DNA of 64,000 nucleotides from Rhizobiales bacterium Y(2018) (GTDB lineage: Bacteria; Pseudomonadota; Alphaproteobacteria; Rhizobiales; Aestuariivirgaceae): positions 1 through 64,000 of the forward strand of contig SCPD01000022.1 of assembly GCA_005502925.1 (NCBI GenBank), in the 5' to 3' direction. The number at the start of each line of letters is the position of its first letter. Within the stretch, counting starts at the first letter, position 1. The position numbers were made by a program, and so were the translations under genes. The notes beneath the pieces are model-generated. The model saw only the letters and a list, made by a program, of their open reading frames with translations, ran no database searches and was not told the origin of the DNA. Of the stretch, positions 22,542 through 38,244 are shown in pieces.

Positions 22542-23435
22542 CTACCGCCACTTGAAGCGCGGTTCCGGCAGGCCGGTGACCCCGGCCCGGACGGCGAACA
22601 GACTGCCGGCCTGCGGCTGGCTCTCGAGTCCGGTACTGGGGCGGATCGAGGTCACATAGATAATGTCGAGCTTGTCGCCGCCGAAAGCGAGCATGCTCGG
22701 CTTGGCGACCGGCAGCGCGATGCGACGGTCGACGATGCCGTCCGGGGTGAAGCGGACGATCTCCCAGCCGTCATTGCCGGCCATCCAGTAGCAGCCATCG
22801 GCGTCGACAGCGCCACCATCGGGGCGTCCCGGCATGTCCCTGGTATCGACGAAGACGCGCCGGTTGCGGATCTGGCCGTCATCCGGGTCGAGATCCCAGG
22901 CCCAGATGGTGCGCACCGCCTTGAAGCTGTCGGAATGATAAAGCGTGCGCCCGTTGGGGCTGAAGGCGAGCCCGTTGGCGACGAAAAGTCCGCCCGTCAT
23001 GCGCGTGCAGCGCTGGTCGCCGTCGAAACGATAGAGCGAGCCTTTCGGTCCCGACGGATCGACCGGATCTTCCATGCTGCCGACCCAGAAGCGGCCTTGC
23101 CGGTCGCAGCGCCCGTCATTCAGACGGTTATTCGGGAGATGCGGCTCCGGCTGGACCAGCGGCGTCGTTTGTCCGGTCCGGAGATCGAAGCGCGCCAGGC
23201 CGGATTTGAGCGCCACCAGCACACTGCCATCGTCGGTCAGCGCGAAGGAGCCGATCGGCTCGGACAGGGCCCAGATCCGGTTGACGCCCGTCTCGGGCTC
23301 GAAACGGTTGAGTCGTCCGGTATAGATGTCGATCCAGTAGAGGGCTTTCTCCTCGCCGCACCAGACCGGGCATTCGCCGAGCTCGGCCCTGATGTCGAGC
23401 ACGCAGTCGACCTCGGGCTTGCGCATGCCCGCCAT
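22542..23435 (-). CDS. SMP-30/gluconolactonase family lactonase
   Basis: A 297-aa six-bladed beta-propeller of the SMP-30/gluconolactonase/LRE family, which hydrolyses aldono- or aldarolactones. Metal-site signatures are GECPVW (Glu near residue 20), PNNRLNDGRCDRQGRFW (Asn/Asp, about 105-120) and the late GRPDGGAVDADGCYW with an Asp ligand. The ATG overlaps the TGA of the ABC ATPase by one base, so it is part of the 29326-22542 operon. With uronate dehydrogenase in the same putative regulon, a role in opening an aldarolactone is plausible. Confidence 0.88.
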   Translation of the reverse strand: MAGMRKPEVDCVLDIRAELGECPVWCGEEKALYWIDIYTGRLNRFEPETGVNRIWALSEPIGSFALTDDGSVLVALKSGLARFDLRTGQTTPLVQPEPHLPNNRLNDGRCDRQGRFWVGSMEDPVDPSGPKGSLYRFDGDQRCTRMTGGLFVANGLAFSPNGRTLYHSDSFKAVRTIWAWDLDPDDGQIRNRRVFVDTRDMPGRPDGGAVDADGCYWMAGNDGWEIVRFTPDGIVDRRIALPVAKPSMLAFGGDKLDIIYVTSIRPSTGLESQPQAGSLFAVRAGVTGLPEPRFKWR

Positions 23436-25186: not shown

Positions 25187-26340
25187 TGCCGGTAGGGATC
25201 CGCGGCATCACGCAAGCCGTCGCCGACGAAATTGAGGGCCAGCACGGCGATCACCACCGCTACGCCCGGCGCGAAGAGCCAGGGCGCGGTGACGATCGAA
25301 CGGATATTCTGGGCTTCTTGCAGCAGAACACCCCAGCTCACGATCGGCGGCTGCAGACCGAGACCGAGAAAGCTCAAAGCGGTCTCGGCCAGGATCATAG
25401 CCGGGATGGCAAGGCTGACCTCGGCGATGATGTGGCTGACGAAGGACGGCGCCATATGGCGGAAGATGATGCGCGGCTCGCTCGCCCCATCGAGGCGCGC
25501 CGCGGTGACGAAATCCTCCGTGCGCAGCGACAGGAAGCGGCCGCGGATGACGCGCGCCAGGTTGGTCCAGCCGATGAGCGACAGGATCAGCGTGATGGCG
25601 AAATAGATCCGCAATGGCGGCCAGTTGTTCGGCATCGCGGCGGCGAGGCCGAGCCACAAAGGCGTCGTCGGCAAGGACAGGATGAATTCGATGACGCGCT
25701 GGATGACATTGTCGATCATGCCACCCTTGTAGCCCGATATGCCGCCGAGGATGATGCCGAGGACCAGGCTCAGCGCCACGCCGACCAGGCCGATCGACAT
25801 CGAGATGCGGGTGCCATAGGTGATGCGGCTCAGCATGTCACGGCCGAGCCGGTCGGCGCCGAGCAGGAACATCGGATCGCCCTTCTTGACCGGCCCGAAG
25901 AGCTTGGTCTCGAGCGTGAAGAGCCCGCCCCACATCGGATAGGGATCGGATTTGACGAAGAGTCCGACCGGGTATTTCACATTTTCGTCGATGGTGAAGA
26001 CGCGGCGCAGCGCCGTCTGCTCGATCGTGACCTTGTAGCCATGCACATAGGGGCGGAACACCAGGCTGCCCGCTTCGTCGCTGTCGAAGAAATGCAGCCG
26101 CTGCGGCGGCGCATAGGTATAGCGCGGCGTGAAGGCATTGGGTGAGAACGGCGCCAGAAACTCGCAGAAAATGCCGACGATGGCGATGAACAGAAGCACA
26201 TAGGTGCTTGCCATGGCGAGGCGGTGCCGGCGGAACTGCCACCACATGAGGCGCCATTGCGAGGCGGAATCGCGTTGCGGCGTCACCGCGCCGGCGGCGG
26301 GCGTCTCGGCTTCGGGCAAAGTGGCGGGGCTAGTTGTCAT
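25183..26340 (-). CDS. ABC importer permease, DppC type with enlarged first loop
   Basis: A 385-aa permease, about 80 residues longer than standard DppC. The extra length lies between the first membrane segment (about residues 35-60) and the family motif GADRLGRDM (near 165), giving a large periplasmic loop rich in aromatic residues. The BPD_transp_1 domain with EAA-type loop AARLDGASEPRIIFRHM follows. Long-loop DppC proteins accompany long SBP family-5 receptors, as in the YejABEF-like and oligosaccharide systems. Confidence 0.9.
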   Translation of the reverse strand: MTTSPATLPEAETPAAGAVTPQRDSASQWRLMWWQFRRHRLAMASTYVLLFIAIVGIFCEFLAPFSPNAFTPRYTYAPPQRLHFFDSDEAGSLVFRPYVHGYKVTIEQTALRRVFTIDENVKYPVGLFVKSDPYPMWGGLFTLETKLFGPVKKGDPMFLLGADRLGRDMLSRITYGTRISMSIGLVGVALSLVLGIILGGISGYKGGMIDNVIQRVIEFILSLPTTPLWLGLAAAMPNNWPPLRIYFAITLILSLIGWTNLARVIRGRFLSLRTEDFVTAARLDGASEPRIIFRHMAPSFVSHIIAEVSLAIPAMILAETALSFLGLGLQPPIVSWGVLLQEAQNIRSIVTAPWLFAPGVAVVIAVLALNFVGDGLRDAADPYRQ

Positions 26341-27316
26341 AACGGATACGCGGATCGACGAAAGCGAGGAGGATATCGGACAACAGCGTGCCGATGAGGA
26401 CGAGGACGCATTGGAACATGATGAGCGCGCCGCCCAGATACATGTCCTGCGTCTTGAGCGCCTGGATCAGGATCGGCCCCGAGGTGGGCAGGCTCAGCAC
26501 GCTCGACACGATGACATCGCCCGAAACCAGCACCGGCAGCACCCATCCCACCGTCGAGATGAAAGGATTGAGCGCGACGCGGGTCGGATAGCGCAGGATG
26601 AGGGTCGTCTCCGGCAGGCCCTTGGCGCGGCCGGTTTCGACATAGGGCTTGCCGAGCTCGTCGAGCAGATTGGCGCGCATGATGCGCACCAAAGCGGCGA
26701 TGCCCGCGACCCCCAGCACGACTACCGGGATCCACAGATGCTGCACGAGGTCGATAACTCTCGCAAAGCTCCAGGGCGCATTGACGAAATCGGGCGAGAA
26801 CAGCCCGCCGACCGAATAGCCGAGGAATTCGACCGAGAGATACATGACGACGAGGGCGAGCAGGAAGCTCGGCGTCGCCATGCCGAGGAAACTGAGGAAG
26901 GTGACGACATAATCGCCGATGCTGTATTGTCGCACGGCGGAGAAGATGCCGACCGGGAAGGCGACGAGCCACACGAAAGCGAGGGTGCAGAAGGCAACCA
27001 GCGTCGTCATGCCGAGCCGGTCCCAGATGATGTCGGAAACGGGCGAGCGGTATTCGAAGCTCATGCCGAGATCGCCCTTGAGCGCATTGCCGACCCAGGT
27101 GAAATACTGGACGACCATCGGCTGGTCGAGGCCGTAGCGCAGGCGCAGCGCATCGAGCGTGGCACTGTCCGCCGGCGATCCTGAAGTCGCGAGATCCGCC
27201 GCATAGCTGGTGACGAAGTCGCCCGGCGGCAATTGGATGATCACGAAGGCGACGACGGTCACCGCGAAGAACGACGGAAACATCCAGAGCAGGCGGCGGA
27301 GGATAAAACCGAGCAT
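26330..27316 (-). CDS. ABC importer permease, DppB type
   Basis: A 328-aa permease starting MLGFILRRLLWMFPSFF at the ATG at 27316, with the family segment VIIQLPPGDFV in the first periplasmic loop and EAA-type loop ETGRAKGLPETTLILRY near residue 225. Overlaps the next permease by 11 bases. The gap to the binding-protein gene upstream holds a strong hairpin. Confidence 0.92.
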   Translation of the reverse strand: MLGFILRRLLWMFPSFFAVTVVAFVIIQLPPGDFVTSYAADLATSGSPADSATLDALRLRYGLDQPMVVQYFTWVGNALKGDLGMSFEYRSPVSDIIWDRLGMTTLVAFCTLAFVWLVAFPVGIFSAVRQYSIGDYVVTFLSFLGMATPSFLLALVVMYLSVEFLGYSVGGLFSPDFVNAPWSFARVIDLVQHLWIPVVVLGVAGIAALVRIMRANLLDELGKPYVETGRAKGLPETTLILRYPTRVALNPFISTVGWVLPVLVSGDVIVSSVLSLPTSGPILIQALKTQDMYLGGALIMFQCVLVLIGTLLSDILLAFVDPRIRYDN

Positions 27317-27338
27317 GACTACACAATCTTGAAACGAG

Positions 27339-27371
27339 GGCACCGGCCGATGCAAAGCACCGGCCGGTGCC
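27339..27371 (-). terminator. Strong hairpin between binding-protein and permease genes
   Basis: Perfect ten-base arms GGCACCGGCC (27339-27348) and GGCCGGTGCC (27362-27371), 13-base loop, in the 69-base gap downstream of the SBP gene on the minus strand. No T-run follows, so partial attenuation or 3-prime-end protection of the SBP message is likelier than full termination. Confidence 0.65.
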
Positions 27372-27385
27372 ATCCTATGCCGATA

Positions 27386-29326
27386 TCAGCGCGGCGGGTC
27401 GAAGTAATATTGCTCCGTATTGCTGGCCACCGGGCTCGGATAGGTCCAGGCGAACGGCCGCGGATAGACATTGTGCAGGTTGTTCTTGACCGCGGCGAAC
27501 AGCGGACCCGGCGAATTGATGCCGATCGCATAGAACTCGTCCGCCGCGATGTTGAGCAGCTGCTGCATCAGTTCGTTCTGCTTGGCCACGTCCGCCGAGC
27601 GCAGGATATCGCGATAGAGGTCCATCTGCTTCTTGGCCGCAGCCGAGGGCTCCTCGCCCGCCTTGCCGCCCGAGGCGTACCAATTGCCCCACGGCACCGC
27701 GAACAGGGTTTCGTTCCAGAACGGGAAGTAGAAGGTCGGCTCGAACAGCGCGTCACCCATGCCGCCGCTGCCGAGGAACACGGCCGCATCATGCTCATTG
27801 GCATCCTTGCGGTCGTAGAACAGCGTGCGGTCGACGGTCTGCACCTTCGCATCGACGCCGACCGCCTGCCAGTATTGGGCCGTGAGCTGGGTCGAGTCGA
27901 GGAAGTCGCCGAGCGCCGGGATCACCATGATGTTGAAGGTGATGCGCTTGCCGTCCGGTCCGAGACGGAAGCCCTCGCTGTCCTTCTTGGGGAAGGCCTT
28001 GTCGAGATGCTCGTTCGCCTTGGCGACGTCGTATTCCGTATATTGCTTGGCGAGCCGCTCATTGTAATAGGGCGACTCCTTGCGCGGCGCCGCCTGCCAC
28101 GGTTCACCCTGCCCGACAAAGGCGGCATCGATGATTGCCTGCCGGTCGATGGCGTAGCTGAGGCCGATACGGAAGTCCTTGTTGTTGAAGATCTCATGCT
28201 TCACCGGATCCTTATGGGTCAGGTTGAAGGAGATGATCGTCGTGTTCATGTCGGCATTGGGCCCATCGGAAAGATGGATCTGCGCCTTCTCCGCCGCATC
28301 GGCAAATACCGCGCGGTTGGCATTGGCGTTCACATGGCGATCCTGATAGTCGATCTCGCCATTCACCACCTTGAGCACCAGCGTCTGCTTGTCGGCATTC
28401 ACCGAAACGCTCAGATCGTCGATATAGGGAAGCTGGTTGCCCTCCGGATCGACCTTGAAATAATAGGGATTGCGCTTGAGCGTCACGAGCGTGGCGCCGC
28501 CGATATAGGGGTCCTTGATGACCCAGGGCTCCATGGTCGGCCGGTCGGGATTCTGCCAGCGTTCATTGGCTTCGGTGTCGACGGCGCATTTCTTGATGAA
28601 CAGTTCCGTCCAGTTGGCGACCCCGGCTTCCTTGATCAGCGCGTCCAGGCCGTCCTTGTTATAGGTCGGCTGGAACTGCGAGCAATAATGCTTCGCCATC
28701 ATCGTCATCTGCACGCCATAGACGCTGGCGAGCTTCTGCGGGAACACGCCATAGGGCTCTTTGAACGTGATCTTGAAGGTCTTGTCGTCGATCTTCTCGA
28801 ACTTGCCCGCCTCGCCGCCGCTCATCAGCCAGTCGACGCCATTCGCCAGCAATTCCTTGTTGCCGGCGATGTCATTGATGAAGAAGCCGATATCGTCGCT
28901 GGTGAAAGGCTTGCCGTCCGACCATTTCAGGCCGTCGCGCAGCTTGATCGTATATTCCTTGGCGTCGGCGCTGTTGGTGATTTCGGCCGCGAGATTGGGG
29001 ATCACCTTGCCGCTCCATTCGCGGTCCCAGGCGAGCAGCGGTTCGTAGCCCGCCATGCGGAAGAGCCAGTTGCGGTCAGAGCCGCCGACCATGCCGGAGC
29101 GCCAGGTACCGCCATATTTGCCGACCTTCTCGACCGGCGTGACGATGCGCGGATCTTTCGGCAGTCTTTCGGCAACCGGCGGCAAGGTGCCGGCCTTGAC
29201 GAGCTCGTCGAGCATCGGCGCCTGCTTGTATTCGACCGCCAAGGCCGCGGTCGTGCCGAGGCAGAGCGCGCCGAAGGCGGCAAGCAGGCCGCTTATTTTT
29301 GGTCGGGTTATCCCGGAACTCCTCAC
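27386..29326 (-). CDS. Large ABC solute-binding protein, SBP family 5 (oligosaccharide/oligopeptide type)
   Basis: A 646-aa periplasmic receptor, about 100 residues longer than OppA. I use the GTG at 29326, seven bases after AGGGAGGA; it gives MRSSGITRPKISGLLAAFG, a signal peptide ending AALAVEY. The mature start APMLDELVKAGTLPPVAERL with VGKYGGTW is characteristic of the AgpA-like, carbohydrate-linked branch of SBP family 5. It heads the operon that continues through two permeases, a fused ATPase and an SMP-30 lactonase. Operator-like element A lies 88 bp upstream. Confidence 0.9.
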   Translation of the reverse strand: MRSSGITRPKISGLLAAFGALCLGTTAALAVEYKQAPMLDELVKAGTLPPVAERLPKDPRIVTPVEKVGKYGGTWRSGMVGGSDRNWLFRMAGYEPLLAWDREWSGKVIPNLAAEITNSADAKEYTIKLRDGLKWSDGKPFTSDDIGFFINDIAGNKELLANGVDWLMSGGEAGKFEKIDDKTFKITFKEPYGVFPQKLASVYGVQMTMMAKHYCSQFQPTYNKDGLDALIKEAGVANWTELFIKKCAVDTEANERWQNPDRPTMEPWVIKDPYIGGATLVTLKRNPYYFKVDPEGNQLPYIDDLSVSVNADKQTLVLKVVNGEIDYQDRHVNANANRAVFADAAEKAQIHLSDGPNADMNTTIISFNLTHKDPVKHEIFNNKDFRIGLSYAIDRQAIIDAAFVGQGEPWQAAPRKESPYYNERLAKQYTEYDVAKANEHLDKAFPKKDSEGFRLGPDGKRITFNIMVIPALGDFLDSTQLTAQYWQAVGVDAKVQTVDRTLFYDRKDANEHDAAVFLGSGGMGDALFEPTFYFPFWNETLFAVPWGNWYASGGKAGEEPSAAAKKQMDLYRDILRSADVAKQNELMQQLLNIAADEFYAIGINSPGPLFAAVKNNLHNVYPRPFAWTYPSPVASNTEQYYFDPPR

Positions 29327-29413
29327 TGGTAGTCCTCCCTGGTTATTTATTGTGGAATTCGGCAGTGCGGCGAATACGCTTACATGTCGGCGGCCCACTG
29401 TCAAGAAATCATC

Positions 29414-29431
29414 AACTTGTCAGTCATCTTT
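29414..29431 (-). promoter_or_regulatory. Operator-like element A (SBP/importer operon)
   Basis: On the plus strand AACTTGTCAGTCATCTTT, first of five related copies. Its AAC edge faces the SBP gene and lies 88 bases upstream of the GTG start. The core resembles the TTGTC-N-GACA half-dyad favoured by FCD-type GntR regulators such as the one at 34721. Confidence 0.65.
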
Positions 29432-29538
29432 TGCGAAGCGGGCTCTAAGCCAATCCGCTCTTAAAAACCGGGCGTTTTTGCTGGTTTTCGTGACTTTGTG
29501 AAGCAAGGCGCTGAAAAACCGTTGAATCTTGATCGCAC

Positions 29539-29556
29539 AAAGATGTAAGACAAGTT
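29539..29556 (+). promoter_or_regulatory. Operator-like element B (deaminase-RraA operon)
   Basis: AAAGATGTAAGACAAGTT on the plus strand, which is AACTTGTCTTACATCTTT on the minus strand. The AAC edge faces the deaminase gene, 35 bases before its ATG. Together with element A it brackets the 264-base divergent intergenic region; apart from these two elements I see no other feature there. Confidence 0.65.
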
Positions 29557-29590
29557 AGAGAAAACCAACGGCAGGGACGGTTCAGGAGCC

Positions 29591-30907
29591 ATGACCACCA
29601 TCGATTTGACGTCCATCGGGACCTTCGCGCTCGACCGCACGGTGAAAGGCATGCCGGGCGATCTGGCCCCCACCGCCCTCAAGGACATCGGCAAATACGG
29701 CTGGAACGTGCTGCGTGAGGACCTGCCTCTGCCGCTCGCCGTCATGCGCGAAAGCGCCATCGCCCATAACAGCGCCTGGATGCGGCGTTATCTCGAGGCC
29801 ACCGGCGCCGATATCGCGCCGCATGGCAAGACGACGATGAGCCCGCAACTTTTCGCCCGCCAGGTGAAGGACGGCGCCTGGGCGATCACCATCGGATCGG
29901 TCGAGCAGCTGCAGGTGGCGCGGCAATTCGGCTTCCAGCGCCTCCTCCTCGCCAACCAGCCGGTCGGCGCCAAGTCGCAGCGCTACATTGTCGATGAGCT
30001 CAAGCGCGACAAGCAATTCGACTTCTATTGCTTCGTCGATTCGGTCGATCTCGTCCGCCAGCTCAGCGCCGTCGCGCGCGACGGCAAGCTCGATCGCCCC
30101 ATCCAGGTGATTATCGAAGGCGGCTTTGCCGGCGGCCGCACCGGTTGCCGCACGCTTGAAGAGGCGCTCGCGGTGGCGCGCGCCGTCAAGGCTGCCGCCC
30201 CTTATCTCTCCTTGCGTGGCGTCGGCGGCTATGAAGGCTTGCTGCGCCGGCCCTCTCCCGATGAATCGGCCAAGGTGGTCGACGGCTTCCTCACTTTCCT
30301 TCTCGACATCGCTCTGGGCTGCGACCGTGAGGATCTGTTCGGCGACGGCGAAGTCCTGCTGACCGCCGGCGGCACCGTCTTCTACGATCTGGTGACCCGG
30401 CATTTCGGCGCGGCGAAGATGTCACGTCCTGTCCGCGTCGTGCTGCGCTGCGGCTGCTACATCACCCATGATTCGGCGAGCTACGTGGCGCATTTCGAGC
30501 AGCTGCGCGCCCGCAATGGCTGGGTCGACGATCTGGGCCCGGGCCCCCAGGCAGCCCTCGAAGTGTGGGCCTATGTGCAATCGCGCCCAGAGCCCGGCAA
30601 GGCGCTCCTCACCGTCGGACGGCGCGACATCTCCTTCGATTCCGCCATGCCGACGCCGCTCAAATGGCTGCGCCCCGCACCTGGCGTCACCGCCGCCGAT
30701 CTGCGTCCGATGGGGGCCGATCATGTGGTGACCGGGCTCAACGACCAGCATTGCCACCTCAAGATCCCGGAGACGAGCCCGCTCGCCGTCGGCGACATGG
30801 TGGCCTTCGGCATCTCGCATCCCTGCACCACCTTCGACAAATGGCAGGTCATTTGCGTCGTCGACGACGACTACAATGTCGTCTCGGCCATCCGCACGTT
30901 TTTCTGA
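29591..30907 (+). CDS. PLP-dependent amino-acid deaminase/aldolase (D-serine dehydratase/D-threonine aldolase-like, fold type III)
   Basis: A 438-aa enzyme with an alanine-racemase-like N-terminal barrel. The PLP lysine lies in PHGKTTMS (Lys80). The C-terminal domain has DQHCHLKI and SHPCTTFDKW, the His/Cys zinc site of DSD1-like eukaryotic-type D-serine dehydratases and D-threo-3-hydroxyaspartate dehydratases. Expected reaction: removal of water and ammonia from a beta-hydroxy D-amino acid to a 2-oxo acid, or retro-aldol cleavage. It is cotranscribed with an RraA-family gene, and a RidA gene lies in the neighbouring operon, fitting enamine/imine chemistry. Confidence 0.87.
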   Translation: MTTIDLTSIGTFALDRTVKGMPGDLAPTALKDIGKYGWNVLREDLPLPLAVMRESAIAHNSAWMRRYLEATGADIAPHGKTTMSPQLFARQVKDGAWAITIGSVEQLQVARQFGFQRLLLANQPVGAKSQRYIVDELKRDKQFDFYCFVDSVDLVRQLSAVARDGKLDRPIQVIIEGGFAGGRTGCRTLEEALAVARAVKAAAPYLSLRGVGGYEGLLRRPSPDESAKVVDGFLTFLLDIALGCDREDLFGDGEVLLTAGGTVFYDLVTRHFGAAKMSRPVRVVLRCGCYITHDSASYVAHFEQLRARNGWVDDLGPGPQAALEVWAYVQSRPEPGKALLTVGRRDISFDSAMPTPLKWLRPAPGVTAADLRPMGADHVVTGLNDQHCHLKIPETSPLAVGDMVAFGISHPCTTFDKWQVICVVDDDYNVVSAIRTFF

Positions 30908-30936
30908 TCCGATCCCAGCAACCAGGAAGCCTCACG

Positions 30937-31653
30937 ATGAGCCCCGAACCCCTTTCCCCCGAAACCCGCAGCCTGCTGTCTGAGATCAGCACCGCCACGC
31001 TGACCTCGCAGCTGATGGCGCGCGGCTTGCGCAACACTTTCATGCAGAAGGTGCACCGTCTCACCACCGGCGGCCCGTCCATGGTCGGTGAAGCCTTCAC
31101 GCTGCGCTATATACCGGCGCGCGAGGACATCGACGTGTCGGCCGTCTTCGAGGACCGCAACCACCCGCAGCGCAAGGCGGTCGAGACCATCCCTTCGGGC
31201 CATGTGCTGGTCATCGACTGCCGCCAGGATATCCGCGCCGCCGGCGCCGGAAGCATTCTCGTCACCCGCACGATGATGAAGGGCGCCGCGGGCGTCGTCA
31301 CCGATGGCGGCTTGCGCGATTCGCCCACCATCGAAGCCTTGGATTATCCGGTCTATTGCGGCGGCCGCTCCGCCCCCACCAATCTGACGCGTCATCATGC
31401 GGTCGACATCAATGTGCCGATCGGCTGCGGCGATGTGCCGGTCTATCCGGGCGATATCATTGTCGGCGACCGCGAGGGCGTGGTGGTCATTCCACGCCAT
31501 CTCGCCGACGAGGTGGCAAAACAGGGCAAAGAACAGACGCTGATGGAGGACTTCGTCACCGAACGTGTTCTCGCCGGGCAGTCGACCTTCGGTCTCTATC
31601 CGCCCAATGCCGAGACGCTGGCGGCCTTCGAGGCCTGGAAGAAGCAGCGCTGA
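30937..31653 (+). CDS. RraA-family protein (HMG/CHA aldolase or oxaloacetate decarboxylase type)
   Basis: A 238-aa RraA/MenG-fold protein. The ATG at 30937 follows an AGGAAG ribosome site. Active-site features of the aldolase branch are visible: DCRQDIRAAGAGSILVTR, then GAAGVVTDGGLRDSP with the RD pair, and the later GDREGVVVIP. Enzymes of this family split 4-hydroxy-4-methyl-2-oxoglutarate or decarboxylate oxaloacetate. Being coupled to a beta-hydroxy-amino-acid deaminase, it may process the 2-oxo acid formed. The name regulator of RNase E activity does not apply with confidence here. Confidence 0.87.
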   Translation: MSPEPLSPETRSLLSEISTATLTSQLMARGLRNTFMQKVHRLTTGGPSMVGEAFTLRYIPAREDIDVSAVFEDRNHPQRKAVETIPSGHVLVIDCRQDIRAAGAGSILVTRTMMKGAAGVVTDGGLRDSPTIEALDYPVYCGGRSAPTNLTRHHAVDINVPIGCGDVPVYPGDIIVGDREGVVVIPRHLADEVAKQGKEQTLMEDFVTERVLAGQSTFGLYPPNAETLAAFEAWKKQR

Positions 31654-31716
31654 GGATCATCTTCGCTCCCGCAGGCAAAGCTGGCCGGGGCGCGTCGCGA
31701 GCCCCTCCCTCATTTC

Positions 31717-31742
31717 CCCTTCTCCCGCTTGCGGGAGAAGGG
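31717..31742. terminator. Rhizobiales-type palindrome, bidirectional terminator
   Basis: Arms CCCTTCTCCCGC (31717-31728) and GCGGGAGAAGGG (31731-31742) are exact inverted copies separated by TT. The element lies between convergent genes ending at 31653 and 31797 and matches a very common rhizobial intergenic palindrome. Confidence 0.75.
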
Positions 31743-31796
31743 AAACCAAGGAAGGCCTTATGTGCTTCGAAGAATCTCCAGAGAGGAAACCCCGCC

Positions 31797-34031
31797 TCAC
31801 ACCACGTGATCGCCGAGCTTCGGGAAGGTCTCGTGGCCCCAGATCTGTCTTTCGCGGATGATCGCCTTCGGCCGCTCCGGATTGACGCTCTCGAATTCAC
31901 GCGCGATGCGGTGGCCGTCGAAGATCGCGTCCGCCAGGTAGCGTGGCGCCAGGCAATCGCCTGACCGTACTACCGTTTCGAGGCCGGCCTCCTGCCAGCG
32001 CGGCTTGAGCGCCATCACGCCATCATAGAGCTCGGTCTTCGCTTCACGCGATGTGCACAGGATCACGCTGTCGCAGTCGAGGATTTCGACCGCATCGCCG
32101 AGCCGGCGCGGATAGACGCCGGTCTGCGGCGTGGTGGTGCGCCGCGACCCGTCGCGATAGCGGTCATAGAGCACAACCTCGACGCCATTGCCCGCCTTCT
32201 CGACTTTGTCGACCCAGTGGCCGGTTCGTTCCTTGATACCCTTCTCACGCAGCATGCGGCGCAGATTGTAGCCCTCAAGGGTGAGCGCCGTCATCGGCGC
32301 GACGGTTTCGAGATGCGTCACCAGAGTTACCTGCTTGCCCTGGTCGGCGAGAACCTCGGCGATGCTGATGCCCATGAAATACCCGTCCGAATCGAGCACC
32401 ACGACGCGATCGCCGATCACCTTGCCAGCGAAGAACTGCTCCGGCGTGACGAAGTGATCGAGCGTCGCATCGATGCCTGGAATTGTGTCGGGCCCGCTGG
32501 CGCCGAGCCCGTTGCCGGCCCAGCGGGCGCCCGTCGCCAGCACGACGCGCCGAGCGCCGTAATCGAGGATGTCTTCCGCCGTGACGAGGCCGGTGCCGCG
32601 CATCACCGTCACATTGGGCATGCGCGCGATCTGGCTTTCGCGATAATCATAGACGCGGCCCCATTCGGCAAGGCCAGGCAGCCGCACGACGTCACGCAGA
32701 TGGCCGCCGAGCTGTTCCTTCGCCTCGACGAGATGCACCTCATAGCCGCGCTTGCCGAGTACGCGGGCACATTCGAGACCGGACGGCCCCGCGCCCACCA
32801 CCAGCACCATTTCGGGATTGGGCGTGGGCTCGAAGCGCTCCGGGTGCCAGCCGCGGCGATATTCCTCGAGCGCCGTCGGATTCTGCGTACAGATGATCAT
32901 GTTGTTGAGATTGAAGCGCGATACGCAGGCATTGCAGCCGATGCATTCGCAGATGTCCTCGACACGGCCTTCGTCGATCTTGCGCGGCAGCCACGGATCG
33001 GCGATCGAAGGCCGCGCCGCGCCGATGATATCGAGCTGGCCGGAGCGGATCACCCGCACCATTTCATCGGGCTCGGTGAAACGTCCGACACCCACCACCG
33101 GCACCTTGGCGATGCGTTTGACTTCGGTGTTCCACGGCGACTGATGGTTCGATTTGTAGAAGCGCGAGGGACCTGAATCCTCGCCCCACATATCCTCGCC
33201 CGAGCCGCCGATGATGATGTCCCACATGTCGACGAGACCGAGCTTGGTGATGTACTCGACGAAAGCCAGGCCTTCGTCATGGAGCTCGAGCCCCCAGGGC
33301 CCGGCGAGGTCGTCGATCGAGATGCGCGTCGCCACCGCACAGTGATCTCCGGCGACCTTCTTCAGCCGTTCCAGCGCCTCGACCCAGAAGCGGGCGCGAT
33401 TCTCGAACGAGCCACCATAGCCGTCGGTACGGCGGTTGAAATGGCGCGACAGCGCGTGCACCGGGAAGACGCCGGCGGCGCCATGAATATAGAGGATGTC
33501 GAAACCGGCATCCTTGGCGCGCCGCGCCGCGTCCTCATACATCTGCATGATGCGGGCGATGTCTTCCTCGGTCGCCGCATAGGTATAGACCTTGGGCGTG
33601 CCGCCGGATGGAAAGCGGTCGAAGGCGGCCGCCACATAGCGGCTCCACAGATTGTCCTTGACCCCGCCGGCACCGAGCTCGACACCGGCAAGCGCCCCCC
33701 ATTTATGGACCTCGTCCACCATGTGGCGATGGTTGATGACGTCGCCCTCGTCCCACATCGTCGTGTTGGTCGAGGTGGACTGGTTGATCTCCGGATGGAT
33801 CGAGCAGGATTCGGTCGACAACCCGCCCCAGCCGCCTTCCGCCTTCACGGCGCGATGGCCGGCATTCGAGCCGGGGCGCGGATGGCCGGCGCCGGTGCAT
33901 TGCGGAACCTGATAGAAGCGGTTCTTCATCACCTTGGGACCGATGCGGATCGGCTCGAACAGCAGATCGTAGCGCGGATCGCGCCGGCGCGGCGCCGTGC
34001 CGGTCGGGTGGGCTGCCGGTGCCTGGGTCAT
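31797..34031 (-). CDS. Trimethylamine-dehydrogenase-like FMN/[4Fe-4S]/FAD oxidoreductase
   Basis: A 744-aa flavoprotein. Residues 20 to about 365 are an Old-Yellow-Enzyme barrel, followed by the iron-sulfur loop CIGCNACVSRF with a fourth Cys in MIICTQNPT, then ADP-binding and FAD/NADH domains. It tracks trimethylamine dehydrogenase (729 aa) closely: the cysteine that binds FMN covalently is kept (VPQC, Cys45). The TMA-binding Tyr60 position is Ser75, and the Tyr169/His172 positions are His183/Ala186, while the VDMWD Trp/Asp are kept. It is probably an N-demethylase or amine dehydrogenase for a different, bulkier substrate. Overlaps the RidA gene by 4 bases. Confidence 0.88.
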   Translation of the reverse strand: MTQAPAAHPTGTAPRRRDPRYDLLFEPIRIGPKVMKNRFYQVPQCTGAGHPRPGSNAGHRAVKAEGGWGGLSTESCSIHPEINQSTSTNTTMWDEGDVINHRHMVDEVHKWGALAGVELGAGGVKDNLWSRYVAAAFDRFPSGGTPKVYTYAATEEDIARIMQMYEDAARRAKDAGFDILYIHGAAGVFPVHALSRHFNRRTDGYGGSFENRARFWVEALERLKKVAGDHCAVATRISIDDLAGPWGLELHDEGLAFVEYITKLGLVDMWDIIIGGSGEDMWGEDSGPSRFYKSNHQSPWNTEVKRIAKVPVVGVGRFTEPDEMVRVIRSGQLDIIGAARPSIADPWLPRKIDEGRVEDICECIGCNACVSRFNLNNMIICTQNPTALEEYRRGWHPERFEPTPNPEMVLVVGAGPSGLECARVLGKRGYEVHLVEAKEQLGGHLRDVVRLPGLAEWGRVYDYRESQIARMPNVTVMRGTGLVTAEDILDYGARRVVLATGARWAGNGLGASGPDTIPGIDATLDHFVTPEQFFAGKVIGDRVVVLDSDGYFMGISIAEVLADQGKQVTLVTHLETVAPMTALTLEGYNLRRMLREKGIKERTGHWVDKVEKAGNGVEVVLYDRYRDGSRRTTTPQTGVYPRRLGDAVEILDCDSVILCTSREAKTELYDGVMALKPRWQEAGLETVVRSGDCLAPRYLADAIFDGHRIAREFESVNPERPKAIIRERQIWGHETFPKLGDHVV

Positions 34032-34501
34032 GGTGCGATTTCCACGATGGCTTCGACCTCGACGCCGACGCCGCGCGGCAGGGTGGCGACGCCGATGGCG
34101 CTGCGCGCATGCCGGCCGGCCTCGCCGAAGACTTCCATCAGCAGCTCCGAGGCGCCATTGGCGACGCTCGAGGCATCGATGAAGGACGGCGCGGCATTGA
34201 CGAAGACAGTGAGCTTCAGGAAGCGCTTCACCCGGTCGATGCGGCCGTCAAGTGCCTCTTCGAGCTGGACCAGGAGGTTGAGCGCGCACAGCCGCGCCGC
34301 CTTGTAGCCGTCTTCATTGCTGAGCGTGTCGCCGAGGCGGCCCTTGAACATGATCTCATCGCCGCGCCGGGGGATCTGTCCCGACATGAAGACGAGATTG
34401 CCCATCGTGGCGGCCTGGAGAAAGAAGGCCGAACCCGGCTTGGCGACGGGCGGCAGCTCCGCACCGAGGGCGGCGAGGCGGTCCTTGAAATTCACGCTCA
34501 T
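34028..34501 (-). CDS. RidA (YjgF) family enamine/imine deaminase-like protein
   Basis: A 157-aa RidA-family protein of the subgroup with an ALGAELPPV opening. Conserved blocks: FVMSGQIPRRGDE near residue 37, NLLVQLEEALDG, VFVNAAPSFIDA, and the C-terminal GVATLPRGVGVEVEAI. The arginine of the classic active site (RxAVGVxxLP) is present as ARSAIGVATLP. It starts at ATG 34501 and is coupled to the TMADH-like gene. RidA proteins hydrolyse reactive enamine/imine intermediates, which both the flavoprotein and the PLP deaminase of this region could release. Confidence 0.87.
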   Translation of the reverse strand: MSVNFKDRLAALGAELPPVAKPGSAFFLQAATMGNLVFMSGQIPRRGDEIMFKGRLGDTLSNEDGYKAARLCALNLLVQLEEALDGRIDRVKRFLKLTVFVNAAPSFIDASSVANGASELLMEVFGEAGRHARSAIGVATLPRGVGVEVEAIVEIAP

Positions 34502-34588
34502 AATATAGAGTTCCTGTCAGGTGATAGAGGATTCGTCGGCAGCCCCCCTGGGCGAGGCCCGATCTTGCGTTACGGCGCAGTAATTGTA

Positions 34589-34606
34589 AACTTATCTGAC
34601 ATCTTT
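34589..34606 (-). promoter_or_regulatory. Operator-like element C (RidA-TMADH operon and gntR)
   Basis: AACTTATCTGACATCTTT on the plus strand. Its AAC edge lies 88 bases before the RidA start, the same distance as elements A and D to their genes. The element is shared with the divergent GntR gene (start 34721), so autoregulation is likely. The rest of the 219-base gap shows no gene; GTTCCTGTCAGGTGAT at 34510 is a weak partial match. Confidence 0.65.
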
Positions 34607-34720
34607 GAGCAAGCCATCCTTTGGGGGACTTGCACAAGATCAGGCGATGCTGCAAACACGGACGAGTTGCAACCGGCGCGAATAACGCGCGACAGAACGT
34701 GAAAGACGGGAGACAGGGAT

Positions 34721-35473
34721 TTGGCTCGCAAATCCAGCGAAAAGCCGCGCAGTAAAGCGGACTGGCAGGTGCAGTCACCGAGCCGGCCATCGCGCCTTGC
34801 CGACCAGCTCTATGGCCAGATCCTCGACCGCATCGTCTCGGGTGCGCTGCCCGAAGGCGAGAAGCTGCCGTCGGAGAGCCAGCTCTGCGAGCTCTACAGC
34901 GTGTCGCGGCCGGTGGTGCGCGAGGCCCTGTCGCGTCTGCAGGCCGACCGCGTCGTGATTTCACGCCATGGCTCCGGCACCTTCGTGCAGCGCCGCCCCA
35001 ACCAGGCCTTCTCGCTCCTGGCGCCGATCGACGACATTGCCGGACTGATGCGCTGCATGGAATTCCGCATCGGGCTCGAGGGCGAAGCGGCCTTTCTCGC
35101 CGCCACAAGGCGCACCGAGGCCGATCTCGACCGCATGAAGCGCGCCTTCGACGAGCTTGAGAAAGTCATTGCCCGGGGCGAGGTCGGCAGCGAAGCCGAT
35201 CAGGCCTTCCATGTGGCGATCGGCGCCGCCGCCCAGAACCAGCTCTTCGTGCAGATGATGGAAGTGCTCTCCGAGCATACGTTGCGCGGCATGGAGCTTG
35301 CCCGCACCTTGTCGTTGCGCCAGAGCACACGGCGCCTGCAGCTCGTCCAGCAGGAGCACAGCCGCATCCTCGCCGCGATCGCCGCCGAGGAACCGGAAGA
35401 AGCCCGCAACGCCATGCGCACCCATATCGACAATGCCAGGCTGCGCGTGCTCAGCGACAGTATCGAGCCGTAA
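34721..35473 (+). CDS. GntR-family (FadR/FCD subfamily) transcriptional regulator
   Basis: A 250-aa regulator. No in-frame ATG exists at the start; TTG at 34721 follows GGGAGACAGGG and gives MARKSSEKPRS. The winged HTH is residues 20-95 (LPSESQLCELYSVSRPVVREALSRL). The C-terminal all-helical FCD domain (about 105-245) keeps the metal/ligand residues in DQAFHVAI, EHSRILAAI and MRTHIDNAR. FCD regulators respond to organic or sugar acids and release DNA on binding. The five similar elements around it make it the best candidate for controlling the 22542-38244 gene set. Confidence 0.9.
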   Translation: MARKSSEKPRSKADWQVQSPSRPSRLADQLYGQILDRIVSGALPEGEKLPSESQLCELYSVSRPVVREALSRLQADRVVISRHGSGTFVQRRPNQAFSLLAPIDDIAGLMRCMEFRIGLEGEAAFLAATRRTEADLDRMKRAFDELEKVIARGEVGSEADQAFHVAIGAAAQNQLFVQMMEVLSEHTLRGMELARTLSLRQSTRRLQLVQQEHSRILAAIAAEEPEEARNAMRTHIDNARLRVLSDSIEP

Positions 35474-35477
35474 GGAT

Positions 35478-36392
35478 CTACGCAGCCTTGGCCAGCGCCG
35501 CGTCATGCATCTGCAGCTGGCGCGCCACCGGGGCGACCCGCGCCCGTTCGGTATCATCGAGATTGGACAGCAGCGGCAGGATCGGCCCCATATCGGCGAT
35601 GCCGGCAAGCGTCACTCCGTCATGCAGCACGCGGGTCGGATTGATCCCGTCGCGCTCATTTTCGAACGGCAGGAATATCTCGCGCAGGCGCTGCGCTTCG
35701 TCATAGGCCTCCGCTTTCAGCGCCGCGAGCAGCGCGCTCGACAGCCGGGGCGCGATCGCCACCGACCCCGAAGTGAAGCCTCGAAGCCCGAATTGCCGCC
35801 AATGCTGGATCGCCGGCCGCTCGCCAATGCCGCTGATGATGCGTGACCGGTCGACCGCCGTGACGAGCTGGCTCAGATAGGGATCGCGGCCCGGATCATC
35901 GCGCACGATCGCATATTTGATCGCGCTGACCAGGCCCTTGTCACAGAGCCGCGCCACCGAGGCCACCGAGAGATAGTTCTCCGCTTTCAAATAGAGGATG
36001 ACCGGCTTGCCCAACGCATCGGCGAAACGGCTGATGCCGTCGGCGGTGCCGGCGTCGGTCGAAAACCCGCTGGCCGGCAGGACCATCGCGGTCGGGAACG
36101 GCCTCTCACGCAGATACCGCGCCTGGTCCATGAGCTTGCCGAAATCGGGACCGGCCGAGGGAATGATCCAGCTCGAAGGCTGGGCGAGCTCGAGCAGCAT
36201 GTCGAGCACGCGCGGATAGTCGCTCAAGCCCAGGTGATAGAAATTGGCGTTGCCGCCATACATCAGCGTCGAGACGCCGCCCGCTTCGAGATGGCGGATG
36301 AGCGCCGCATTGGCTTTGATGTTGAGGGTCAGGTCGGCGTTGCGGGCCAGCGGCGGTACCGCCACGACCGATTTTCCCGGATCACTATGCAC
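35478..36392 (-). CDS. Dihydrodipicolinate synthase family lyase/dehydratase
   Basis: A 304-aa class-I aldolase-like barrel. The Schiff-base lysine is in SAIKYAI (about residue 160) and the catalytic tyrosine in VILYLKAENY. The GTxGE phosphate/carboxylate loop of classic members is replaced by YGGNANFYHLG, so the substrate differs from pyruvate/aspartate-semialdehyde. Relatives include 5-dehydro-4-deoxyglucarate dehydratase and hydroxyproline-pathway deaminase. Start is GTG at 36392 after GAGGAAAAG. Operator-like element D lies 88 bases upstream. Convergent to gntR with a 4-base gap. Confidence 0.82.
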   Translation of the reverse strand: MHSDPGKSVVAVPPLARNADLTLNIKANAALIRHLEAGGVSTLMYGGNANFYHLGLSDYPRVLDMLLELAQPSSWIIPSAGPDFGKLMDQARYLRERPFPTAMVLPASGFSTDAGTADGISRFADALGKPVILYLKAENYLSVASVARLCDKGLVSAIKYAIVRDDPGRDPYLSQLVTAVDRSRIISGIGERPAIQHWRQFGLRGFTSGSVAIAPRLSSALLAALKAEAYDEAQRLREIFLPFENERDGINPTRVLHDGVTLAGIADMGPILPLLSNLDDTERARVAPVARQLQMHDAALAKAA

Positions 36393-36479
36393 AGGCTTTT
36401 CCTCGTCGCAGAGATGATGGTTGCAAGAAGCGACGCCAGTCCTAGCCCGTCAGCCGCTCACAAGTCAACCCAAGACATA

Positions 36480-36497
36480 AACTTGTCTTACGTCTTT
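36480..36497 (-). promoter_or_regulatory. Operator-like element D (DHDPS-family gene)
   Basis: AACTTGTCTTACGTCTTT on the plus strand, AAC edge 88 bases before the GTG of the DHDPS-family gene. It overlaps the last codons and the stop of the amidohydrolase gene at 36488, so it is an internal site that gives the DHDPS gene its own control point. Confidence 0.62.
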
Positions 36498-37321
36498 TGC
36501 ACGGAAATGTCGAACAGGCGCGCCGCCGTCCCGCCCATGACCAGTTCCTTGTCGGCCGCGCCGAGGTCCGGGAAATCCGCGCCCCATTGAATGAGCTTTT
36601 CGTAAGCGCATATGTTCGCCGCCCCCGGATAGTCCGAGCCATACATGAGACGCTCCGCCCCGAAACGAGACAGAACAGAGCGATAGAAGGCGACGACATC
36701 GGGAAATGGATAGGCGGTCTTCGTATCTTCCGCCGTGCAGAGCAGCTTGAAATAGATATTCGGATGCGCCGCCAGAAGATCGAGATAGGGCGCGGCATCG
36801 GTCCGCGCATGAATGTCCGGTCCCAGATAATCGACGATCAAAGGCAGGGAGCGATGCTGCACCGCCAGCCGGGCGATCACCGGCGCCTGCTCGATATCCA
36901 TCTGAAAGGCGACGGAAACCCCCATTTCCTCAGCGGTATCGAAAAGGCTTTGATAGTCGGGTCCGGCGAGCCTGGTGACATCGCCGCGCAGGATCGTGTT
37001 GAGGCGCAAGCCGCCGCCAAGCCCTTTGGCGATGAGATCGAGGAAATCCTCCCGCGGCGTCGTCGAGCGCAAATCGACGAGGCCGACGCCGATGAAGCGA
37101 TCGGGCGCCGCCTTGAGGCTATCGATCAGATAGCTGTGATCGCGGCCATAGACGCTGGGCTGCACCAGGATCGCCTTGTCGACCTCTGCGCGCGCCATGT
37201 CGGCGAGCAGCCTCTCCACCGGGGCGGCATAGGTCGGCGGCGGCACATGGGCGAGCAGCGGCTGCCACGGATAGGCAATGGGATCGCTGGACCAGACATG
37301 CAGGTGGGAATCGACGATCAT
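36488..37321 (-). CDS. Amidohydrolase-family (PDC/fuconolactone lactonase-like) hydrolase
   Basis: A 277-aa metal-dependent TIM-barrel hydrolase of the amidohydrolase_2 family. The HxH motif is at the start (DSHLHVW), the middle has GGLRLNT and LPLIVDYLG, and the end carries YGSDYPGAAN with the conserved aspartate. The ATG at 37321 gives MIVDSHLHVW, the usual family start. Family members hydrolyse lactones such as 2-pyrone-4,6-dicarboxylate, fuconolactone or galactarolactone, which fits the divergent uronate dehydrogenase gene. The gap to udh holds operator-like element E and a degenerate second copy at 37342-37356. Confidence 0.85.
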   Translation of the reverse strand: MIVDSHLHVWSSDPIAYPWQPLLAHVPPPTYAAPVERLLADMARAEVDKAILVQPSVYGRDHSYLIDSLKAAPDRFIGVGLVDLRSTTPREDFLDLIAKGLGGGLRLNTILRGDVTRLAGPDYQSLFDTAEEMGVSVAFQMDIEQAPVIARLAVQHRSLPLIVDYLGPDIHARTDAAPYLDLLAAHPNIYFKLLCTAEDTKTAYPFPDVVAFYRSVLSRFGAERLMYGSDYPGAANICAYEKLIQWGADFPDLGAADKELVMGGTAARLFDISVQKT

Positions 37322-37377
37322 GGTGCCTCGGGAGACGATGCGATTTGTCACATCTTGAAGGATGGCGACCAGCATAT

Positions 37378-37395
37378 AAACTCGCCTGACAAGTT
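37378..37395 (+). promoter_or_regulatory. Operator-like element E (udh)
   Basis: On the minus strand AACTTGTCAGGCGAGTTT; its AAC edge faces udh, 40 bases before the ATG. It is the least conserved copy on its right side. A shorter match, GATTTGTCACATCTT (37342-37356), lies 21 bases before the amidohydrolase start in the opposite orientation. Confidence 0.55.
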
Positions 37396-37434
37396 TGTCC
37401 AAGCACAGATCACAAAAACCGGGACCTTTCCACC

Positions 37435-38244
37435 ATGACCGATACCCGCCCGACCCTCTTCACCGGCGCCGCCGGGATTCTCGGCCGCTGGCTGAGGCCC
37501 CGGCTCGTCGAGAAATATGGGCGCATACGCTCCTCCGATGTCGTCGAATTCGGCCCGGCGCTGCCCGGCGAGGAGATCGTCATCGCCGATCTCGCCGATG
37601 CGGCGGCGGTGGACAGCATGGTGGCAGGCGTCGGACGGATCATCCATTTCGGCGGCATCTCTTACGAGACGACGTTCGACCGTATCCTCCAGTCCAATAT
37701 CGCCGGCACCTATAATGTCTTCGAGGCGGCGCGCCGTCATGATGCCGGCCCCATCGTCTATTCGAGCTCCAACCACGCCATCGGCTTCTACACCCGCGAC
37801 GACCGGCTCGATGCTAGCGTCCCGCAGCGCCCGGACTCGCTCTATGGCGTCTCCAAGGCCTTCGGCGAGGACCTGGCGAGCTTCTTCGCTGACAAATACG
37901 GCATGGACATCGCCTGCCTGCGCATCGGCACGGCCAGGCCCGATCCCACGGATGTGCGCCAGCTCTCGACCTGGCAGAGCTATGAAGATCTGCTGCGCAT
38001 GATCGAAGCCTGCTTCGAAGCGCCGAAGCTCGGCTGCACCATTCTTTATGGGGTGTCGAACAACGACCGGCGCTGGTGGAGCAACGAGCTCGCCCCCCAT
38101 GTCGACTACCGCCCGCAGGACAATGCCGAGACTTTCGCCGCCAAGCTGATCCCCGACGGCGACAAACGTGATCTCAGCGACCCGGCGGTCAAATATCAGG
38201 GTGGTGTTTTCGTCGCCGACGGCTACGCACCCAAACGACGCTAA
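37435..38244 (+). CDS. udh: Uronate dehydrogenase
   Basis: A 269-aa NAD-dependent extended-SDR enzyme. It matches Agrobacterium Udh through GGISYETTFDRILQSNIAGTYN, the SSNHAIGFY segment with catalytic serine, YGVSKAFGE, RIGTARP, and the C-terminal YRPQDNAETF. The Rossmann motif is GAAGILGRW near residue 10. Reaction: oxidation of glucuronate or galacturonate to the aldaro-1,5-lactone, first step of oxidative uronate breakdown. The lactone could then be opened by the adjacent amidohydrolase or the SMP-30 protein. The stop codon overlaps that of the convergent LysR gene. Confidence 0.9.
   Translation: MTDTRPTLFTGAAGILGRWLRPRLVEKYGRIRSSDVVEFGPALPGEEIVIADLADAAAVDSMVAGVGRIIHFGGISYETTFDRILQSNIAGTYNVFEAARRHDAGPIVYSSSNHAIGFYTRDDRLDASVPQRPDSLYGVSKAFGEDLASFFADKYGMDIACLRIGTARPDPTDVRQLSTWQSYEDLLRMIEACFEAPKLGCTILYGVSNNDRRWWSNELAPHVDYRPQDNAETFAAKLIPDGDKRDLSDPAVKYQGGVFVADGYAPKRR

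Follow-up and report, generated by a model that had tools for sequence, protein, structure and literature searches.

The window analysed here, a stretch of 64,000 nucleotides from Rhizobiales bacterium Y(2018) (contig SCPD01000022.1), carries at 22.5-38.2 kb a gene cluster punctuated by short palindromic elements, with the following features:

22542..23420, minus strand: SMP-30/gluconolactonase family protein (PF08450)
23435-25186, minus strand: importer ATPase (open reading frame in conserved order; family by sequence inspection)
25183-26340 and 26330-27373, minus strand: two importer permeases (open reading frames in conserved order; family by sequence inspection)
27386..29326, minus strand: SBP-5 solute-binding protein, relative of the pectin-binding SPH1118
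29412..29432, plus strand: predicted operator of the SBP-5 importer operon, a 21-mer whose arrow faces left, toward the 29326 gene; all 6 genomes have a counterpart
29538..29558, minus strand: predicted operator of the DSD-RraA operon; all 6 genomes have a counterpart, a weak one in G072 (score 15.5)
29591..30907, plus strand: PLP enzyme of D-serine deaminase type (DSD; PF14031, PF01168; PDB 3gwq, E 4e-94)
30937..31653, plus strand: RraA-like aldolase family protein (PF03737; NF006093 above cut-off)
31797..34031, minus strand: trimethylamine-dehydrogenase-type (TMADH-like) iron-sulphur flavoprotein (1djn, E 4.5e-218; residues)
34028..34501, minus strand: RidA-like protein (PF14588, PF01042)
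34587..34607, plus strand: predicted operator between the RidA-TMADH operon and gntR; in 5 of 5 genomes having the divergon
34721..35473, plus strand: FCD-type GntR regulator (gntR), TTG start (Pfam GntR and FCD; orthologues 80-99%)
35478..36392, minus strand: divergent DHDPS-superfamily lyase (3d0c, E 1.5e-10; weak KdgD matches; fold search with a weak model)
36478..36498, plus strand: predicted operator serving the DHDPS-family lyase gene; all 6 genomes have a counterpart
36488..37321, minus strand: Amidohydrolase-2 family protein, lactonase-like (PF04909; weak L-fuconolactonase match)
37341..37355, plus strand: auxiliary element CGATTTGTCACATCT, a possible half-site; equally far from the UDH operator in four of six genomes
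37377..37397, minus strand: predicted operator of the uronate dehydrogenase (UDH) gene; counterpart in 6 of 6 genomes, relocated with the gene in 2
37435..38244, plus strand: predicted uronate dehydrogenase (3rft, E 7e-78)

Five of these elements share one imperfect palindrome, AAACTTGTC-N-GACAAGTTT. Against the consensus AACTTGTCTKACATCTTT, the sites at 29414(+), 29539(-), 34589(+) and 36480(+) show 2, 0, 1 and 1 mismatches, respectively, and shuffled windows are expected to yield 0.01 matches. The site at 37378(-), AACTTGTCAGGCGAGTTT, is absent from the window matches because it differs at 5 positions; it is the most palindromic of the five, with 7 of 10 positions symmetric versus 5-6 in the other four. 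The original prediction of five elements at these positions is borne out, and within the window the same holds for the AAC edge said to face the next gene and for the distances of 35 and 40 bases given for two of the sites. The gene-facing arm of the operator is conserved and the opposite arm is mostly degenerate (relaxed at four of five sites in this strain), while flanking sequence differs from copy to copy. The 34589 site is also upstream of gntR, at a distance of 124 bp, and the operator at 36478..36498 shares bases with the amidohydrolase stop codon. That the amidohydrolase gene has a site of its own is ruled out by G072 and Bosea 117, where UDH lies elsewhere and the DNA scanned directly upstream of the amidohydrolase gene holds no match scoring at least 9. 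The shorter sixth match that had been reported at 37342 differs in core spacing, but a similar element stands at an equal distance from the UDH operator in four of six genomes; it is kept in G072 despite the moved UDH and is absent in G002 and Bosea 117. RraA (30937-31653) is a gene of its own.

The operator is rare elsewhere. No further copy of the originally proposed consensus occurs at up to 2 mismatches in the 7.1 Mb genome, and the two additional matches found at 3 mismatches carry no weight, since a reversed-consensus control yields 8 at up to 3. The motif is thus not common outside 22.5-38.2 kb, and the reading survives the scan proposed as a check on it. A second proposed check, conservation in related strains, likewise turned out in its favor: six genomes, ranging from Taklimakanibacter-like bacteria to Bosea sp. 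117, retain the sites along with gntR and a further 12 genes of the cluster, and the sites persist through gene rearrangement. In two of the six (G072 and Bosea 117) the UDH gene has been relocated within the cluster with its operator still in front, and in Bosea 117 an operator also stands ahead of the relocated DSD gene. A position weight matrix (PWM) built from the five window sites only finds 5 matches in G072 and 6 in Bosea 117 at a score of at least 18, both strands counted, versus 0 in 30 random control runs for each; weak sites precede DSD in G072 (15.5) and gntR (19.2) and RraA (13.5) in Bosea 117. Among four genus-level genomes, 93 of 105 operator columns are invariant versus 281 of 609 in other intergenic sequence. 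In the same-genus genome G004 (87% complete), both the regulator (at E<=1e-40) and exact sites are missing. An element this short might in principle recur by chance or as a dispersed repeat, but the shuffles, the genome scan, the recovery of the relatives' sites by the PWM with its controls, and the differing flanks rule this out, leaving it a vanishingly small probability.

The protein encoded at 34721 is the main candidate for recognition of these sites. It combines an N-terminal GntR winged helix (PF00392, E 3.1e-22) with a C-terminal FCD domain (PF07729, E 6.6e-27), in which Asp160, His164, His213 and His235, presumably the ligand-metal site, are invariant and align with 2di3. Equivalents of the FadR contact residues are invariant across the six orthologues. 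The consensus operator contains TTGT-CNG-ACAA, that is, TKGT and ACMA boxes 3 nt apart, with single sites deviating in the far arm; it thereby fits the TKGT-N3-ACMA class of the FadR subfamily as given in the portion of Suvorova et al. 2015 (PMC4494728) drawn on here, in keeping with the earlier claim that the core resembles FCD-type GntR operators. By the same portion of that source, the Gly at published position 59 of the regulator suits TGGT better than TTGT (PMC4494728). Given that the operator fits the FadR/FCD class and that gntR is the sole regulator gene of the cluster found in all six genomes, the GntR protein is very likely the binder, as was originally proposed. The sites might instead serve another regulator, either a second FCD protein encoded elsewhere, for which the 87 first-look GntR-family candidates in the genome leave room, or the LysR protein at 38241. 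Yet gntR is present in 6 of 6 clusters with a site upstream, a single protein of the genome matches the regulator at E<=1e-40, and the LysR gene, present in just one of five relatives within the DNA searched, is ruled out by its lack of conservation, all of which makes a different binder improbable. Taken whole, the proposal that the 34721-35473 protein uses the five elements as its operators, in one local catabolic regulon over 22.5-38.2 kb, has, by sequence comparison, a high probability.

Among the matches listed, the regulator falls below every NCBIfam equivalog cut-off, the best being LldR (129.9 of 311 bits), followed by PdhR (122.8/330), GlcC (95.5/301), UxuR (71.9/442) and ExuR (71.8/396). 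Its structure model has a mean pLDDT of 56.9. Homologues of the regulator adjoin sugar-acid genes. A simple scan of 14 loci, with homologues of 37-48% identity, gives no clear operator copy nearby. As far as the part of Suvorova et al. 2015 used here goes (PMC4494728), the system shares with FadR-subfamily regulons the FCD regulator, the TKGT/ACMA palindrome with 3 nt between GT and AC, double-site divergons and genes of sugar-acid type, and is unlike them in its one degenerate operator arm, its amine-metabolism genes and its failure to reach an equivalog cut-off. On pSymB of Sinorhizobium meliloti (L049), a 45% identical FadR-type regulator lies beside UDH (48%) and SMP-30 (34%) homologues; there a dihydroxy-acid dehydratase replaces DSD, TMADH and RidA, and a simple scan gives no clear copy of this operator.

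How the regulator might act is suggested by the placement of its sites. The spacing of 88 bases to the start codon, noted originally for three sites, is exact in the window (88/88/88) but is not kept in relatives, where differing distances rule it out as a fixed rule: from site centre to start codon they are 96/100/98/98/126 for RidA (five genomes) and 96/96/97/92/115/131 for the lyase gene (six). For DSD they are 43/43/44/46/45 (five of six; the G072 start was not located) and for UDH 48/48/47/43/50/60 (six), these two sites standing 43-60 bp ahead of the start codon in the 11 cases, out of 12, that were measured. With promoter elements assigned by inspection, all 12 SBP-5 and lyase promoters have TTGAC 18-20 bp downstream of the operator axis, an arrangement that none of the 23 other site-promoter pairs shows. 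This geometry suggests two regulatory modes. A GntR dimer would bind AAACTTGTC-N-GACAAGTTT, and an inducing carboxylate, probably one of the pathway's sugar acids, would bind the FCD domain and alter DNA binding. At DSD and UDH repression fits, since the site is on or just downstream of the presumed promoter; at the importer and lyase genes activation would fit, since the site just upstream of the conserved TTGAC falls near -55, provided that this sequence is the -35 box. For catabolic FCD regulators, repression is the usual mode. Whether the protein is instead a plain repressor everywhere, released by inducer, with other promoters or looping accounting for the position upstream of TTGAC, is close to evenly balanced against activation, falling a little short of an even chance: the distance between the paired sites of the SBP5-DSD divergon is 126/126/126/125 bp among members of the genus, near whole helical turns (145 in G072), but the lyase gene has a single site, upstream of TTGAC, in six of six genomes.

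What the regulon is for must be read from its enzymes. UDH matches solved uronate dehydrogenases over its full length (3rft, E 7.2e-78; 6mfh, E 2.8e-80), consistent with the predicted activity. The lyase at 35478, without a Pfam match, lies under the KdgD cut-off (26.8 of 373.95 bits) and is still of the DHDPS superfamily, its structure model (mean pLDDT 61.4) supporting the DHDPS fold only. The TMADH-like protein matches trimethylamine dehydrogenase (1djn) over its full length, keeping Trp264, Asp267, Cys30, which we take to be flavin-linking, and cysteines 345/348/351/364, taken to hold the 4Fe-4S cluster. Tyr60, Trp355, Tyr169 and His172 are replaced; as Trp264 alone is kept of what is presumably the aromatic substrate bowl (Tyr60/Trp264/Trp355) with Tyr169/His172, the protein at 31797 is, by its residues, a family relative and not a trimethylamine dehydrogenase. 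Its homologues of 47-54% identity (4 of 10 listed loci) share no cluster gene beyond generic matches to an ATPase, a GntR (25%) and a LysR (24%) protein. SPH1118 is described, in the parts of two reports used here, as a pectin-binding protein with an importer in Sphingomonas sp. A1 (PMC9314435, PMC7055323). The SBP-5 protein (27386) is identical to it at 235 of 604 residues and keeps Asn53, Arg57, Glu216, Trp594 and Arg466, with Arg438 replaced by Leu, Asp483 by Phe and Arg496 by Thr; four of the five galacturonate-contacting residues given in those parts are kept.

The importer, UDH, lactonase, PLP deaminase, TMADH-type enzyme with RidA, and keto-acid lyases together point to a system that takes up and oxidises a hexuronate-containing compound carrying an amine, a substrate that replaces the N-methylated amino acids first guessed at; the pathway may be new. 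UDH and lactonase would give an amino-aldaric acid, from which either a PLP enzyme (DSD-like or DgaE-like) or the TMADH-type enzyme with RidA would remove nitrogen to yield a keto-deoxy acid directly, replacing the usual aldarate dehydratase before KdgD-like or RraA-like lyases act last. In full, as a dedicated pathway for aminouronates or uronate-amine conjugates under one FCD-GntR that both represses and activates through two geometries, this is a tentative and rather doubtful proposal. Ordinary oxidative hexuronate catabolism, the amine enzymes being bystanders within the promoter set, is possible if somewhat unlikely. The likeness of SBP-5 to SPH1118, including the four retained galacturonate contacts, the closeness of UDH to solved enzymes and the sugar-acid genes beside regulator homologues speak for it, but the amine enzymes stand in six of six clusters with operators, DSD and a DgaE-family ammonia-lyase gene have an operator in common in Bosea 117, family profile searches recognised no aldarate dehydratase among the cluster genes, and SPH1118 Arg438 and Arg496 are lost in SBP-5. 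Literature searches returned nothing combining TMADH, uronate, RidA and GntR, nothing on aminouronates, nothing linking glucosaminate, dehydratase and D-threonine aldolase, and, judged by title, no fitting alphaproteobacterial GntR uronate regulon with TTGTC. The locus offers a mapped, testable regulon of regulator, operators and targets from a little-studied soil lineage, in which one operator unites enzymes rarely found together (UDH, a TMADH-type amine dehydrogenase, RidA and a PLP deaminase), a grouping that points to a definite class of substrate and a possible alternative to the oxidative uronate pathway.

Outside the cluster, 1-mismatch IUPAC matches lie in G000 (C32:368773) and G002 (C1:4778861), and a palindromic match in G003 (C8:413571). 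Of 145 relatives that lack a close regulator orthologue, four (G011, G013, G038 and G149) have a single exact IUPAC match apiece.

The five putative operators at 29414, 29539, 34589, 36480 and 37378, around the gntR gene at 34721-35473, are read here as belonging to a real, local and conserved regulon of which the FCD-type GntR protein is the predicted binder. Their positions were confirmed in the window, and the directed consensus originally assigned to them holds for four elements (0-2 mismatches; 0.01 matches expected in shuffled windows) and fails for the fifth, at 37378, which despite 5 mismatches is the best palindrome of the five. Pooled sites of six genomes (the source genome, three others at genus level, G072 and Bosea sp. 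117) give the shape AAACTTGTC-N-GACAAGTTT. Across them the arm facing the gene, AACTTGTC, is almost invariant; the far arm reads ACATCTTT, exactly or nearly, in four window sites; some sites of relatives have ACATGTTT or ACAGGTTT there, and the uronate dehydrogenase (UDH) site comes close to the full arm. The element thus appeared directed because the gene-facing arm is nearly constant and the far arm mostly degraded except at UDH. According to PMC4494728, FadR-subfamily operators follow a rule of TKGT/ACMA boxes in which GT and AC are separated by 3 nt, to which TTGT-CNG-ACAA conforms. At the lyase operator (36478-36498), the amidohydrolase stop codon (36488-36490) lies inside the site, so that coding end and operator have bases in common.

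The prospect that the motif might be common elsewhere was not borne out in the source genome (7.10 Mb, 37 contigs), which holds no further consensus match at up to 2 mismatches; two further matches at 3 mismatches carry no meaning, because the reversed control yields 8 there at up to 3. When an IUPAC consensus derived from these sites was searched at 0 mismatches in 150 relatives, the five orthologue-bearing genomes gave 17 matches, every one inside the locus, an outcome that the derivation of the consensus partly ensures; the other 145 gave a single match in each of four; the reversed control gave 11 over all 150. At one mismatch in the six genomes, two matches fell outside the clusters (one each in genomes G000 and G002), with 10 for the reversed control.

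Likewise, the predicted recurrence of the sites in relatives is found. Among 150 related genomes, the source included, 11 have a GntR match at E <= 1e-40, five of them orthologues at 82% identity or more; Bosea sp. 117, from a second genome collection, has an orthologue at 80%, and a same-genus draft (G004, 87% complete) gave no match at E <= 1e-40. All six loci, the window's included, contain all 13 cluster genes:

SMP-30, ATPase, two permeases, SBP-5 (importer solute-binding protein), DSD (PLP enzyme of D-serine deaminase type), RraA, TMADH-like (trimethylamine dehydrogenase), RidA, GntR, lyase, amidohydrolase, UDH

Scoring with a PWM derived only from the five window sites gave, at 18 or above, 5 matches for G072, 6 for Bosea 117, and 0 in 30 first-order random runs for each; matches on either strand enter these counts, in which a single palindrome may therefore appear twice. 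Operators recur in the relatives' clusters, and in the four genus-level genomes 93/105 operator columns are invariant versus 281/609 other columns, a comparison whose significance the relatedness of the sequences exaggerates. Sites of the SBP5-DSD divergon (29412-29558) lie 126, 126, 126 and 125 bp apart in these four, about 12 helical turns, and 145 bp apart in G072.

GntR is the sole regulator gene of the cluster common to all six genomes; of five relatives, only Aestuariivirga sp. YIM B02566 has the 38241 LysR gene within the DNA searched. Positions equivalent, by ungapped offset, to the DNA-contact residues of FadR are invariant in the six orthologues. Ser at the presumed published position 28 is compatible with TTGT, since Arg there avoids A/T, and Gly at published position 59 does not fit TTGT; evidence of this kind is weak.

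In the SBP-5 and lyase promoters, counting from the operator axis, TTGAC begins 18-20 nt downstream in 12/12 cases (six genomes each), as against 0/23 other site-promoter pairs, and is followed by CATGYAAGC in 6/6 SBP-5 promoters and, in lyase promoters, by CTAGGA in five and CTATGC in the sixth. If TTGAC, recognized by inspection, is the -35 box, the operator centre lies near -55, an activator-like place. From operator centre to start codon the distance is 43-46 bp at DSD in 5/6 genomes (the G072 start was not located) and 43-60 bp at UDH in 6/6, with TATAAA overlapping the UDH operator edge in 5/6; these positions, with promoter elements again judged by inspection, are compatible with repression. 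Start codons taken from alignment ends are uncertain for SBP-5 (G002, Taklimakanibacter lacteus, Bosea 117), RraA (Bosea 117) and DSD (G072). A CGATTTGTC[AG]CATCT-like element (37341-37355; L030:7669-7683 in G072) precedes the UDH operator by a constant distance in 4/6 genomes, including where UDH has moved, and is a possible auxiliary half-site.

In the REARRANGEMENT test, the whole genomes of G072 and Bosea 117, where UDH does not adjoin the amidohydrolase gene, were searched with patterns. Two of the matches have their centres 50 and 60 bp before the start codons of the relocated UDH genes, respectively, and one is 45 bp before the Bosea 117 DSD gene. The latter operator is also upstream of a divergent DgaE-family PLP ammonia-lyase gene (L031:6630-7805; 278.8 bits against a cut-off of 385.3), which is absent from the window's cluster. 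RraA in Bosea 117 is divergent from SBP-5, with a marginal site only (score 13.5). Adjoining the relocated UDH of G072 (L030:593-7648) are a LacI-type regulator, DUF1028, an ABC importer and an Amidohydro_1 gene, a set in which the operator scan gave no match except the one before UDH.

As to function, UDH aligns to solved uronate dehydrogenases across almost its full length, and the best solved relative of SBP-5 is the pectin-binding SPH1118 (235/604 aligned residues identical). Of five residues reported in PMC9314435 to contact galacturonate, four (Asn53, Arg57, Glu216, Trp594) are conserved and the fifth, Arg496, is replaced by Thr. In place of Arg438 of SPH1118 the window protein has Leu. 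The best solved relative of the PLP enzyme is a D-serine deaminase. Over its full length the flavoprotein is related to trimethylamine dehydrogenase; it retains the flavin and iron-sulphur cysteines, and Tyr60, Trp355, Tyr169 and His172 are replaced. The lyase (35478-36392), without a Pfam match at E 0.001, is by fold and weak similarity a distant DHDPS-superfamily member. PLP deaminases and amine dehydrogenases alike release imines and enamines, the compounds that RidA proteins hydrolyse. An amine-bearing hexuronate is the simplest substrate that would use all of these proteins; this putative combined pathway was not found in the open-access literature searched.

Five of 31 matching records were examined for the gene neighbours of GntR homologues, here proteins of 45-48% identity. 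In Sulfitobacter, Limimaricola and Roseibium the homologue adjoins RraA with TRAP, cupin and SDR-type genes, in Qingshengfaniella an enolase-superfamily gene and SMP-30, and in S. meliloti homologues of UDH, dihydroxy-acid dehydratase and SMP-30. By the neighbourhoods of these five records the kin of GntR belong with sugar acids, and what is new here is the amine half of the regulon.
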